DNA from: Candidatus Bathyarchaeota archaeon
Lineage (GTDB): Archaea > Thermoproteota > Bathyarchaeia > Bathyarchaeales > Bathycorpusculaceae
Length of the DNA: 35,958 bases
Direction: 5' to 3'
Assembly: GCA_017883615.1 (NCBI GenBank)
Contig: JADGNF010000040.1
Span: 1 to 35,958, forward strand
Shown: one piece after another, positions 17,047-21,243 of the stretch
How positions within the stretch are numbered: the first letter of the stretch is position 1
Layout of the letters: the number at the start of each line of letters is the position of its first letter
The notes under the pieces: generated by a model
Told to the model about the DNA's origin: nothing
What the model saw: the letters and a program-made list of their open reading frames with translations, nothing else
Databases searched by the model: none
Translations under genes and position numbers: made by a program

Positions 17047-18555
17047 TTACATGCCTTGCTTTAAGCGTCGGTAAGTTGTGTAGTCAACGAATTGGGCAAA
17101 CGGGTTTTCGGTTAAGGATTTCACGCTGATTTTCTGGCGTTTCCTCTTATCAAGAAGCTGACTTGTCGTTCTTAGCAGGTATGCGTCGCTTCCGGCGCCT
17201 GAACCATAGCTTGCTAGCAATATTTGTTCGTCTGGCTGAGCTAGATCGAGCACGGCTGCTAGCCCTACTGGGGAGCATCCGCTGTAGGTGTTGCCAAACT
17301 TGTTCACCTGAAGTGAGCAGGTATATTGCTCGTCTCGGAACCCTAGTTCCTTGGCGACCTTAACTGGGAAAGCAGGGTTGGGTTGGTGAGGCACGAAATA
17401 GTTGACGTCATGTGGCTTCAAATTCATTTTCTCCATGAGTTTGGTGACAGATTTTCTGACATGTTTAAAGTACGCTGGGTCTCCGGTGAATCTTCCCCCG
17501 TGCATTGGGTAGGGCTCGCCGTCACGACGCCAGAAATCGGGCGTATCTGAAGTGACTGAATACCAGCCTTCGATTTCCGCAATGACATCATGTTTGCCAA
17601 GGACAAACGCTGCTCCGCCATAGCCGACAAAGAGGTCCAATTCCCCTCCTGGGCAGCCTCGGGGTGCTGCTTGACTGTTATCAGCGCCAATGACCATTGC
17701 GTTTCTGATGCCAGACCCGGGGTAGCTTACCAATGCAGCTGCATCTTTAAGCATGCTTGTGGCTGCTTTGCACGCAAATTCTGTGTCCACCGCGTCTACA
17801 CCTTGGACATCTCCGTCTTCTTCGCCGAGCTTTAGAACCTGTGCGACTTTGGAGGCGATGGGCTTAACAGCGTAAGGGTTGGATTCAGAGCCAACATAGA
17901 CTTTTCCTACATTTGCACTGTCTATGCCCGCATGTATAAGCGCTGTTTTTCCTGCTTCCACCGCTGCAGTTATCGAATCTTCGTCGGTGAATGGGACAGC
18001 TCGTTCGATACCGCCTTCTTTTATTCTGAACCTTGAAGTGTAGACACCATAGCCCACAATGCCGGGCAATTTGTATTCTTTGTTCTGTTCGCTAACCAAG
18101 TATTCCTGATGCGGGTAGTATTCGTCTGCCAAAGAGAATGCCAATGAAATAGTTGGGACAACGTCACTTTTATTTACAGTATACCGCCTGCGGAACCTTG
18201 GAATAACTTCTCTACCCTCCAAAGCAGAGAGATCGACTTCTTGGTCGGGTTTTATAATTTGGTCGGTGAGTCTGCCAGGCACTCGGATTTTGCCGCCATG
18301 GAAAGAAACGATTCCGTAGACGAAACTATCGAGCTTGGTGAATTTGTTAGTGGGTTCCGTGACAAGGGTACAAAGTTCCAGTTTTCCTTTATCGTTGAAA
18401 AGGTCAACTGAGGACATTCTCATGTAGCTTTTGCGTCCACAGTTACTGCAATAATCTCGAATCTCAAAATATTCTTTGCCGCATATTTGGCACTTGCTCG
18501 CCTTTAACCTGTCGCCGAGGTAGCTGACTCTGCGCTCTATTGGCTCGCTGCTCAA
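17047..18555 (-). CDS. HMG-CoA synthase with fused N-terminal DUF35 domain
   Basis: Condenses acetyl-CoA with acetoacetyl-CoA in the mevalonate pathway, which makes archaeal lipids. Of 502 residues, about 10-125 form a DUF35 module: a zinc ribbon with C22/C25 and C36/C39, then an OB fold ending 'VIPRFRRRY'. Residues about 160-502 are archaeal HMG-CoA synthase. The nucleophile is C262 (EFACKAAT), with H390 (VPHQPNP), GNTYSGCSP (421-429) and GSGAGSDA (451-458). In other archaea DUF35 is a separate protein bridging thiolase and HMGCS. The thiolase-family gene is 2 nt upstream. Confidence 0.9.
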   Translation of the reverse strand: MSSEPIERRVSYLGDRLKASKCQICGKEYFEIRDYCSNCGRKSYMRMSSVDLFNDKGKLELCTLVTEPTNKFTKLDSFVYGIVSFHGGKIRVPGRLTDQIIKPDQEVDLSALEGREVIPRFRRRYTVNKSDVVPTISLAFSLADEYYPHQEYLVSEQNKEYKLPGIVGYGVYTSRFRIKEGGIERAVPFTDEDSITAAVEAGKTALIHAGIDSANVGKVYVGSESNPYAVKPIASKVAQVLKLGEEDGDVQGVDAVDTEFACKAATSMLKDAAALVSYPGSGIRNAMVIGADNSQAAPRGCPGGELDLFVGYGGAAFVLGKHDVIAEIEGWYSVTSDTPDFWRRDGEPYPMHGGRFTGDPAYFKHVRKSVTKLMEKMNLKPHDVNYFVPHQPNPAFPVKVAKELGFRDEQYTCSLQVNKFGNTYSGCSPVGLAAVLDLAQPDEQILLASYGSGAGSDAYLLRTTSQLLDKRKRQKISVKSLTENPFAQFVDYTTYRRLKQGM

Positions 18556-18557
18556 TT

Positions 18558-19754
18558 CTAGTTCCTCCCCAATATCGAGACGTAGCTTTTGGTGCCAAAT
18601 CCTTCAAACTCCAGCGAACAACCAAACCGCGGTTCCTTATCTGTGATTGCTTGCCTATTGCCTGCTTCTCCCCGTAGCTGCTTGAAAATCTCGAAGAGTT
18701 GAGCACCGCCGGTTGCTCCAAGTGGGTTACCGTCTGCTTTCAAGCCGCCGTTAAGATTAGTAAAAAGTTTCCTGCCATTTACCTCATAGTAGCCTTTGTA
18801 GTCTTGGCAGCTGTCATAGATGCTCCTCCACGCGGTTCCCTGTTCGCAGAAACCCAAGTCTTCAAGGGAAACCATTTCCGCAAAAGTGGATTGGTCATAA
18901 AGTTGGAGTATCTCTATGTCAGAAAGTTTCACTTTAGCCATTTCGGTGGCTTTCTCCATGGCGATTTTGGTAGCCAAGAAACGGGTTAAGTCTTCTCTGG
19001 CTGGATAATTCAGGTAGTCAGTGGCTGAGGTCACTCCGCAGATTTGGACTGGCTTGTCAGTTAGCTTCCTGGCTTTCTCTGAGCTGGTGAGAATCAGGGC
19101 CGAAGCGCCGTCCGATATGGGTGCAAAATCGTAGAGTCCCAGCGATTTCCGCGCTGCTTTCCGTGCACTCAAAACTTGCTCAAGAGTTATTTTTCTTTGG
19201 AACTGGGCGTACTCGTTTTTTGTTGCGTTAGCGTGGTTTTTCACGGCAACCTGTGCTAGTGCAATATTGAGTTTTTCGAGGTTTTCGCCCGTTATTCCAT
19301 ATTTTTTGGTGTAAGCCCTAAGCATAAGCTCGTGGTTTGATTCTGGTGTGCATCCAGCGTAATAACTCCAGGGGTCTTCTAGTAGCATAAGGTCGTCGCG
19401 GATTTTGTCCCATCGGTCAGTCATTTTTTCTATGCCGCCAACGAGGACAGTGCTGTAGACGCCTGCGCGTATGGCGTGGCACGCAGTTAAAAGGGCGGCA
19501 CTAACAGAGCGGGTTACTTCCATGGGAACATGCAGTTCCGTCAATTCCGATAGGAAGCCTTCTTCTAAGCCGAGTTTGTTAGTGATTGGGAGAAAACAGT
19601 CTGACATATAGCAGGCTTCTAGATCTTTTCGTTCTAAACCGCATGACTGTGACGCGGCGAGCCAGGCTTCCTCAATCAGTTTTTCTGGCTCTTTGCCATA
19701 ATGTTCCCCAAACTTTGTTCGACCCACAGCCACTATCGCTGGACAATTCTGCAT
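18558..19754 (-). CDS. Thiolase-family protein lacking canonical catalytic residues
   Basis: This 398-residue protein has the archaeal acetyl-CoA acetyltransferase (SCP2-thiolase-like) fold, with 'AGVYSTVLVGGIEKMTD', 'PISDGASALIL', 'SLEDLGF' and 'QLRGEAGNRQ' conserved. By position the gene should make acetoacetyl-CoA for the adjacent HMGCS. However, the nucleophile segment reads 'EVTRSVSAA' (79-87) with no cysteine, HDCF is YDQS, GHP is GNP (342-344), and the THN segment is 'CSLEFEGFG' (379-387). I chose the ATG at 19754; a TATA-like TTAAAA lies about 48 nt upstream. A TTG at 19790 is in frame. Confidence 0.88.
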   Translation of the reverse strand: MQNCPAIVAVGRTKFGEHYGKEPEKLIEEAWLAASQSCGLERKDLEACYMSDCFLPITNKLGLEEGFLSELTELHVPMEVTRSVSAALLTACHAIRAGVYSTVLVGGIEKMTDRWDKIRDDLMLLEDPWSYYAGCTPESNHELMLRAYTKKYGITGENLEKLNIALAQVAVKNHANATKNEYAQFQRKITLEQVLSARKAARKSLGLYDFAPISDGASALILTSSEKARKLTDKPVQICGVTSATDYLNYPAREDLTRFLATKIAMEKATEMAKVKLSDIEILQLYDQSTFAEMVSLEDLGFCEQGTAWRSIYDSCQDYKGYYEVNGRKLFTNLNGGLKADGNPLGATGGAQLFEIFKQLRGEAGNRQAITDKEPRFGCSLEFEGFGTKSYVSILGRN

Positions 19755-19836
19755 AATATCGCTCTTCTCAGTAGCATTTACCCATTCCAAAACCGCTTTT
19801 AAGTGTTTGCCAACTCACTTCCGATTCACGCCTTCA

Positions 19837-21243
19837 CTACTGCTTCTCAGGTTGGTCGGCAATGATTTCGTTTTCCGTTATCTTTCTTTTCAGGTTGGCA
19901 ACCAAATCTTCCAAGGCTTGGCTTAACTCGACAGGATACTGTGAGTGGCTAGTCAATTGCTTGTATTTGGCGGGAAGTTTTGCGATGTTTGCGGCAGCTG
20001 AGGTTCTGATATCGTTTAACGAAGGCAGATTGTACGTGAGTTTTCCGTTTTCCATTACCTTCACTAGTAGCGGTTCTCCCTTGGACTGTTCGTTTGCCAA
20101 CGCTATGATGTCATTAATGTAGTTGCCTTTTGCGTCTGTGACTCGATAAACTTGTTTTCTTCCAGGTAGAGTGTTCTTGTTTTTGCTCAGTTTCATAATG
20201 GGGCAAAATTCTCCTTTGCCGTTCATGGTTTCGCACAGCTTGTAAATGACATCTATATAGGGATAGTCGGCGGAGGTCCCCATTTTTGTTCCTACCCCGA
20301 AGGCGTCAATCTTTGCACCCGTGTTTTGGAGTTCAGATATTTTATATTCGTCTAGGTCTCCACTGGCGAAAATGATAACATAGCCCAAATCTTTCGCATC
20401 TAGGAGAATCCGAACTGCTTTGCTAGTATCCGCCAAGTCTCCACTGTCTAATCGAACGCCGATAAGCTTCATGCCTTTCTTCTCGAGTTCCTTTGCGATA
20501 ATAGTTGCTTTTTGTGCTCCTGCTTTGTCATCATATGTATCGATGAGCAGTGTGGCTTTAGCGGGGAAGGTGTTAGCGAATGCACGGAACGCGTCCAGTT
20601 CCTTTTCATAAGACATAATGAAGCTGTGTGCCATAGTTCCGTAAACTGGAATTTCGTATGCCATGCCTGCAAGAACGTTGCTGGTGCCTTGACATCCTGC
20701 AATGTAACTGCTTCGTGCAACTTTCATACCTGCGTCAATGCCGTGTTCTCTACGTAGTCCAAACTCAACAACAGATTTACCTTTTGCCGCATACACAACT
20801 CTGGAAGCTTTGGTGGCAATCATTGTCTGCAAGTTAACTGTGTTTAGTAGGAAGGTTTCGATAAGTTGTGCTTCAATTATTGGTGCAGTTACTCGAATTA
20901 GAGGTTCGTTGGGAAAAACTATTGAGCCTTCAGGGACTGCGAACACGTCGCCGGTGAATTTGAAGTCCTGCAGATAAGCCAAGAACTTCTCGTCAAATCC
21001 TTGCTTACGAAGGTAGGCTGTATGCTCTTTGGTGAACTTCACACTTTCTAAGTAGCCTAGAACCTGCTCTAAACCAGCAAACATAAAGTAAGAGCGGCCT
21101 GGAGGCAATCTGCGGATGAACACATCAAAGGTGGCAGGTTCAAATTTCTTATTGTCAAAATAGGAGGCACACATGGTTAATTCATAGAGGTCCGTAAACA
21201 AGCCCATGTTTTCCTCGTTCTGGTAAGCCAAAAAACCCTTCAT
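19837..21243 (-). CDS. pncB: Nicotinate phosphoribosyltransferase
   Basis: First step of the Preiss-Handler NAD salvage pathway: nicotinate plus PRPP gives nicotinate mononucleotide. The 468-residue length is normal. Recognisable motifs are 'LFTDLYELTM' at the N-terminus, 'EFGLRREHG', 'GTMAHSFIMSYEKE' and 'IGVRLDSGDL', followed by 'FASGDLDEYKI'. The last part (about 400-468) is helical and variable. It lies 82 nt upstream of the thiolase gene on the same strand; whether they share a transcript is unclear. Confidence 0.93.
   Translation of the reverse strand: MKGFLAYQNEENMGLFTDLYELTMCASYFDNKKFEPATFDVFIRRLPPGRSYFMFAGLEQVLGYLESVKFTKEHTAYLRKQGFDEKFLAYLQDFKFTGDVFAVPEGSIVFPNEPLIRVTAPIIEAQLIETFLLNTVNLQTMIATKASRVVYAAKGKSVVEFGLRREHGIDAGMKVARSSYIAGCQGTSNVLAGMAYEIPVYGTMAHSFIMSYEKELDAFRAFANTFPAKATLLIDTYDDKAGAQKATIIAKELEKKGMKLIGVRLDSGDLADTSKAVRILLDAKDLGYVIIFASGDLDEYKISELQNTGAKIDAFGVGTKMGTSADYPYIDVIYKLCETMNGKGEFCPIMKLSKNKNTLPGRKQVYRVTDAKGNYINDIIALANEQSKGEPLLVKVMENGKLTYNLPSLNDIRTSAAANIAKLPAKYKQLTSHSQYPVELSQALEDLVANLKRKITENEIIADQPEKQ

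Follow-up and report, generated by a model that had tools for sequence, protein, structure and literature searches.

A thiolase homologue without catalytic residues next to a DUF35-HMG-CoA synthase fusion in Bathyarchaeia

What does a thiolase homologue do that has lost its catalytic residues and is encoded directly in front of HMG-CoA synthase (HMGCS)? The question is raised by a contig of a Candidatus Bathyarchaeota archaeon (JADGNF010000040.1, assembly GCA_017883615.1), of which a stretch of 35,958 nucleotides, the window, was analysed. It concerns a large group of uncultured archaea in which the operon enzyme for the first membrane-lipid intermediate is without catalytic residues.

The pseudo-thiolase and its lost catalytic sites

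The gene is located on the minus strand (18558..19754) and has an intact reading frame. From an ATG start at position 19754 it encodes a protein of 398 aa, MQNCPAIVAVGRTKFGEHY. This start position is shared by the majority of orthologues; a longer alternative from the ORF list, starting with TTG at 19790, is unnecessary. The earlier note on this DNA had assigned an archaeal thiolase scaffold to the product, and this is borne out by scores above the cut-off for both Pfam Thiolase_N and Thiolase_C_1 and by the solved relatives, which are, best first, the Methanothermococcus thiolase 6ESQ_A (E 1e-48), 7YVY and 4YZO. PRK06064 matches at E 1e-83, yet with 281 bits below its cut-off of 420. By fold and sequence family, the protein belongs to the thiolase superfamily (archaeal / SCP2-like acetyl-CoA acetyltransferases). 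An AF2 model of the single chain, computed from a shallow input alignment of 18 rows, has a pLDDT of 81 and a pTM of 0.86, is confident apart from residues 112–136 and 340–344, and finds 6ESQ_A as its top match in the PDB. As a thiolase fold without catalytic residues it is called pseudo-thiolase here.

The catalytic sites were compared with those of two references, the thiolase in the solved Methanothermococcus complex and an intact thiolase encoded elsewhere in this genome. The earlier note had reported that nucleophile, HDCF, GHP and HN sites are all lost, and the alignment confirms these four losses. In the nucleophile segment EAACASG aligns with R----SVS and TEAACASS with TR----SV; four residues are deleted between R82 and S83 (19506..19511, minus strand), and the loop AACA including the equivalent of Cys85 is gone. 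HDCF is replaced by YDQS (residues 286–289; 18888..18899, minus strand), with an invariant DQS and a variable Tyr. In place of GHP there is GNP (342–344; 18723..18731, minus strand), its Asn, aligned to the His, being invariant in 98/98 orthologues. The HNVGG-type motif has become LEFEGFGTK (381–389; 18588..18614, minus strand), in which LEFEG stands for HNVGG and LE for HN; the EGFGTK part is nearly invariant and present in nearly all orthologues whose sequence extends to the C terminus.

The search for homologues, mostly in MAGs, yielded 92 distinct orthologues in Bathyarchaeia and six from other classes (L135–L140), in total 98, which share the deletion, DQS and GNP. Within the Bathyarchaeia the deletion, DQS and N343 each occur in 92/92, and the first position of YDQS is Tyr in 76/92, Asn in 14/92 and once each His and Cys. 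The nucleophile Cys, the His and Cys of HDCF and the His of GHP are replaced or deleted across all orthologues, that one His at the first position of YDQS aside, and no invariant Cys is left among them. In the taxonomic order to which the window belongs, 105 genomes carry the pseudo-thiolase gene and 11 are listed without it. Close pairs of pseudo-thiolases give a median dN/dS of 0.076, compared with 0.057 for the fused HMGCS. Because the 92 plus six orthologues share the losses and dN/dS is about 0.08, the losses are due neither to decay, as the earlier note had also argued, nor to sequencing error. One assembly, CP070835.1 (bin106; L015 and L072; also G138), contains two dead-thiolase copies, one of them before a truncated fusion, and has 13 thiolase matches, which may reflect duplication or a chimeric assembly.

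Gene neighbourhood and order of events

With the pseudo-thiolase stop codon ending at 18558, the following gene starts at 18555, leaving 2 nt between them, the distance given in the earlier note. This downstream gene (17047..18555, minus strand, TTG start, 502 aa) had been read as HMGCS, with its N-terminal DUF35 domain overlooked. The DUF35 domain (18136..18555, minus strand, limits approximate; match to 6ESQ_E, E 8e-7) consists of a rubredoxin-like zinc ribbon (Cys22/25/36/39) and an OB part, the four Cys being invariant in 104/104 orthologues. The HMGCS domain (17050..18063, minus strand, limits approximate) carries the catalytic residues Glu224, Cys262 and His390, likewise invariant in 104/104 fusion orthologues. 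Judged by these residues, the fused HMGCS is predicted to be catalytically competent, as expected for the HMGCS of a thiolase/DUF35/HMGCS complex. Wherever the flanking DNA suffices, the fusion follows the pseudo-thiolase, with a truncated copy (L015, bin106) as sole exception. All three families are thus present in one gene cluster, DUF35 as a domain of the fusion. Pfam assigns the other neighbours to, among others, ferredoxin oxidoreductase subunits, TFIIB and a histidine kinase; they are not mevalonate genes, and the upstream gene (19837–21243) looks by eye like a nicotinate phosphoribosyltransferase. HMGCS is the only pathway gene at this place and HMG-CoA reductase is found on a different contig (C4) of the same genome; therefore, the term "mevalonate locus" used in the earlier note is too strong.

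An independent fusion with the opposite order, DUF35 being C-terminal, occurs elsewhere (L192:3307–4815, G172), in a family that has several HMGCS loci without a thiolase gene (also L162, L175, L189). Near-complete genomes of the phylum, some of them Bathyarchaeia (G173, G181, G150, G054 and others), gave no archaeal-type HMGCS match at E 1e-60.

The same three families and the same gene adjacency are known from the thiolase/DUF35/HMGCS complex of Methanothermococcus thermolithotrophicus (6ESQ, 6ET9), the source of the best solved relatives. The Methanothermococcus thiolase is an active enzyme (Cys85), and its DUF35 partner is a protein of its own with 130 residues, whereas here the thiolase is devoid of catalytic residues and DUF35 is fused to HMGCS. 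With these residues absent, the pseudo-thiolase is not predicted to be the active thiolase of such a complex.

Four genomes (G177, G198, G205, G212; L141–L144) share both the gene order and the DUF35-HMGCS fusion, yet their thiolase is fully intact (CASS/HDCF/GHP/HNIGG). In a tree of 41 rows these four intact sisters and 15 dead sequences group together at 100/100, each of both being monophyletic at about 100/100, and the stem leading to the dead clade is long (0.6 changes per site). Since intact sister lineages share the fusion and the gene order, the fusion is older than the catalytic loss. The conclusion that catalysis was lost after the fusion assumes a loss and not a regain, and intact thiolases on all sides make a loss far more likely. 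Descent of the dead gene from the paralogue on contig C32 was rejected, as the dead gene groups in the tree with intact thiolases of fused operons at 100/100.

There are 19 near-invariant residues common only to the dead clade and the intact thiolases of the fused operon, most of them in the motifs TNKxGLxxG and DRxxKIxDDLM. The former (residues 58–66; 19557..19583, minus strand) is exclusive to the dead clade and the intact thiolases beside the DUF35-HMGCS fusion and is a candidate partner interface. The latter, here DRWDKIRDDLM (113–123; 19386..19418, minus strand), is specific for the fused clade, partly present in the intact sisters and of low confidence in the AF2 monomer, and is a further candidate interface. 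The 19 residues may well be contacts to the fused partner. Together, intact sisters and dead clade provide a natural before/after pair for studying the role of a pseudoenzyme subunit.

A second thiolase and the role of the pseudo-thiolase

The earlier note had reasoned that acetoacetyl-CoA must come from elsewhere unless the complex makes a different product, and a candidate source is available in the same genome. A second, intact thiolase on contig C32 (L001, G000:C32), 35–39% identical to the pseudo-thiolase, has CASS, HDCF, GHP and HN and adjoins a stand-alone DUF35 gene. Such a Cys-bearing thiolase, usually beside its own DUF35, is carried elsewhere in the genome by 16/17 of the dead-clade genomes tested; in G031, a 97% complete MAG, no second thiolase was found. 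In the four sister genomes the operon thiolase is the sole copy. Further Cys-less thiolase-like genes (L273:159, L274:2827, L277:2918, L265, L266) read TVSGDG and HDMFAY or are divergent, and several of this group are divergently transcribed beside an intact thiolase-DUF35 pair.

Our preferred explanation, to which we assign a probability of roughly two in three, is that the pseudo-thiolase is a subunit of a thiolase/DUF35/HMGCS complex for which another thiolase supplies acetoacetyl-CoA. Its strong conservation next to the gene for the following pathway step makes retention as a non-catalytic subunit probable. It would descend directly from the thiolase that is the active subunit of the archaeal complex: DUF35 would first have become the N-terminal domain of HMGCS, and the nucleophile loop and every general acid/base residue would then have disappeared from the thiolase. 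Most likely it would still be the core dimer or tetramer that carries DUF35-HMGCS. By keeping its half of a shared CoA-binding cleft, it may help HMGCS to keep its fold and its oligomeric state and to accept acetoacetyl-CoA, made by the separate intact thiolase that usually has its own stand-alone DUF35. We infer a physical complex, binding of CoA or acetoacetyl-CoA and this substrate route. The closest precedent is the reverse case, PpATase/PhlACB (5M3K), a complex of the three families that cannot do without one of its two thiolase-fold subunits although this subunit is catalytically empty (PMC6392133). It is a mirror image: PhlA, the HMGCS-like subunit, lacks the key Cys and Glu and PhlC, the thiolase-like one, is active, whereas in the present case the thiolase is the empty partner and HMGCS is intact.

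The idea of a structural partner, proposed in the earlier note, agrees with the invariant operon, its DUF35-HMGCS fusion and the existence of intact sisters. However, it is not obvious why a mere scaffold should need a pocket that is constrained as in active enzymes. In hand-chosen windows around the four motifs and the loop 132–142, the mean entropy of the dead clade is 0.43 bits versus 1.16 elsewhere (p 2e-8). The ratio of pocket to rest is 0.49 in the dead clade, 0.55 in active thiolases and 0.82 and 0.70 in two other Cys-less clades, a comparison that is indicative only because group sizes and divergence differ. Several fixed residues replace one that is fixed in the active enzymes: F>S289, H>N343, N>E382, G>E384 and A>E142. 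This suggests that the pocket still has a function. The simplest would be to bind acetoacetyl-CoA or CoA in the shared cleft; new chemistry at the site, the other suggestion of the earlier note, is the more daring reading.

That reading we consider unlikely. It holds that the invariant set E138, N140, H141, E142, D287, Q288, S289, N343, E382, E384 and K389 binds or converts another, possibly acyl-CoA, substrate, still within the HMGCS complex. The constraint, as tight as in active thiolases, and the newly fixed residues speak for it, and so does a precedent: the thiolase-fold aldolases Ltp2 and Sal (6OK1, 9MYR) work with a DUF35 partner and without nucleophile chemistry and also have YDxx for HDCF, showing by analogy that a thiolase site can be re-tooled (PMC12329534). 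However, a catalytic Tyr and a Cys/Tyr are essential in these enzymes, whereas in the pseudo-thiolase the matching Tyr is replaced in 16/92 (by Asn in 14/92) and no Cys is invariant; moreover, DUF35 sits on HMGCS and not on a MaoC-type hydratase partner. An aldolase of the Ltp2/Sal type using the Tyr of YDxx is therefore disfavoured. Nor does any gene of the operon point to another product, HMGCS being intact and HMG-CoA reductase present, and cavity filling or a partner interface could also explain the conservation.

Less probable still is a regulatory sensor, in which the pocket would bind acetoacetyl-CoA or CoA without turnover and tune HMGCS. It draws on the same pocket conservation and on TbSLP of T. 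brucei, a fold relative of the model that according to the entry titles was solved with acetoacetyl-CoA and malonyl-CoA, but the sequence cannot separate a sensor from the shared-cleft idea. That the protein is still a thiolase by means of a shifted Cys is very improbable. C92, the obvious candidate, is kept in 88/98 but absent in 10 orthologues, and both catalytic His are also gone. It was rejected as nucleophile, since intact sisters carry the helix Cys beside the true nucleophile (L141 ASSSSALHNAC, L144 ASGSSALFNAC). A pseudogene, a frameshift or an assembly or sequencing error is ruled out for all practical purposes by 98 orthologues in the same state with open frames and a dN/dS of about 0.08.

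Nucleophile loss elsewhere in the phylum

In a phylum-wide sample of thiolases from HMGCS operons with a separate DUF35, the nucleophile Cys is kept in 20/53 and absent in 33/53, where it is replaced by Asp (15), Gly (7), Glu (6), Ala, Ser, Thr, Gln or Leu. Mapped on a quick tree, in which clade B has long branches and some placements may be wrong, the Cys state changed at least four times, three of these within operon thiolases. A single loss for all Cys-less operon copies is therefore not favoured; beyond the dead fused clade the tree points to at least two further losses in HMGCS-operon thiolases. These copies from other families resemble the pseudo-thiolase in their operon partner, the missing nucleophile and, usually, the presence of another thiolase, but they go back to separate losses, have a separate DUF35, mostly keep the HD His and show a relaxed pocket conservation. 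In the operons of other families (L148–L204) Asp or Glu stands for Cys in 21/53, often with the HD His kept, which could be more than a plain loss.

Among the genomes with an unfused Cys-less operon thiolase, 23/26 have a verified Cys thiolase of SCP2 or classical type elsewhere; of the remaining three, G230 is ambiguous, and G215 and G277 hold only a Ser-type thiolase. Genomes with an intact operon thiolase have another thiolase in 3/23. Raw counts associate a dead operon copy with a second thiolase at a Fisher p of 3e-9, a value that comes from a previous tally whose cells differed slightly and that includes related genomes. A tree-aware test offers 3 independent pairs, too few for power, and gives p 0.25 at best. 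Because the genomes are related and only three transitions are independent, this link is a pattern and not a proven rule.

Direct hand-over to HMGCS reportedly pulls the unfavourable thiolase step, which is the rationale given for the archaeal complex. As the dead clade and about 60% of the sampled unfused operon thiolases are without the residues for the first step, the intermediate should come from another thiolase, or the coupling differs. The annotation of an HMGCS-operon thiolase as a working acetoacetyl-CoA thiolase by gene context becomes doubtful for many archaea. A bolder proposal, which we put forward tentatively and hold to be doubtful, has two parts: the re-tooled pocket, with its new acidic/His/Asn set, would perform a new ligand-binding or catalytic step that feeds HMGCS, an undescribed function of the thiolase fold, and in the phylum, lineages that already possess a second thiolase would repeatedly have lost the nucleophile from their HMGCS complexes. 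In the open-access literature that was searched we found no mention of Cys-less members of the thiolase/DUF35/HMGCS complex; an earlier notice elsewhere is possible.

The near-complete genomes G277 and G215, in which no Cys thiolase was found, encode Ser-type thiolase-like proteins (L267, L268) with the motif NTSGSGG and with HD and GHP kept. ST0096 of Sulfolobus tokodaii (4YZO) is of the same type: this archaeal thiolase-like protein has Ser instead of Cys at the nucleophile position of the alignment, but it keeps HD and GHP and appears on a different branch of the tree from the pseudo-thiolase.
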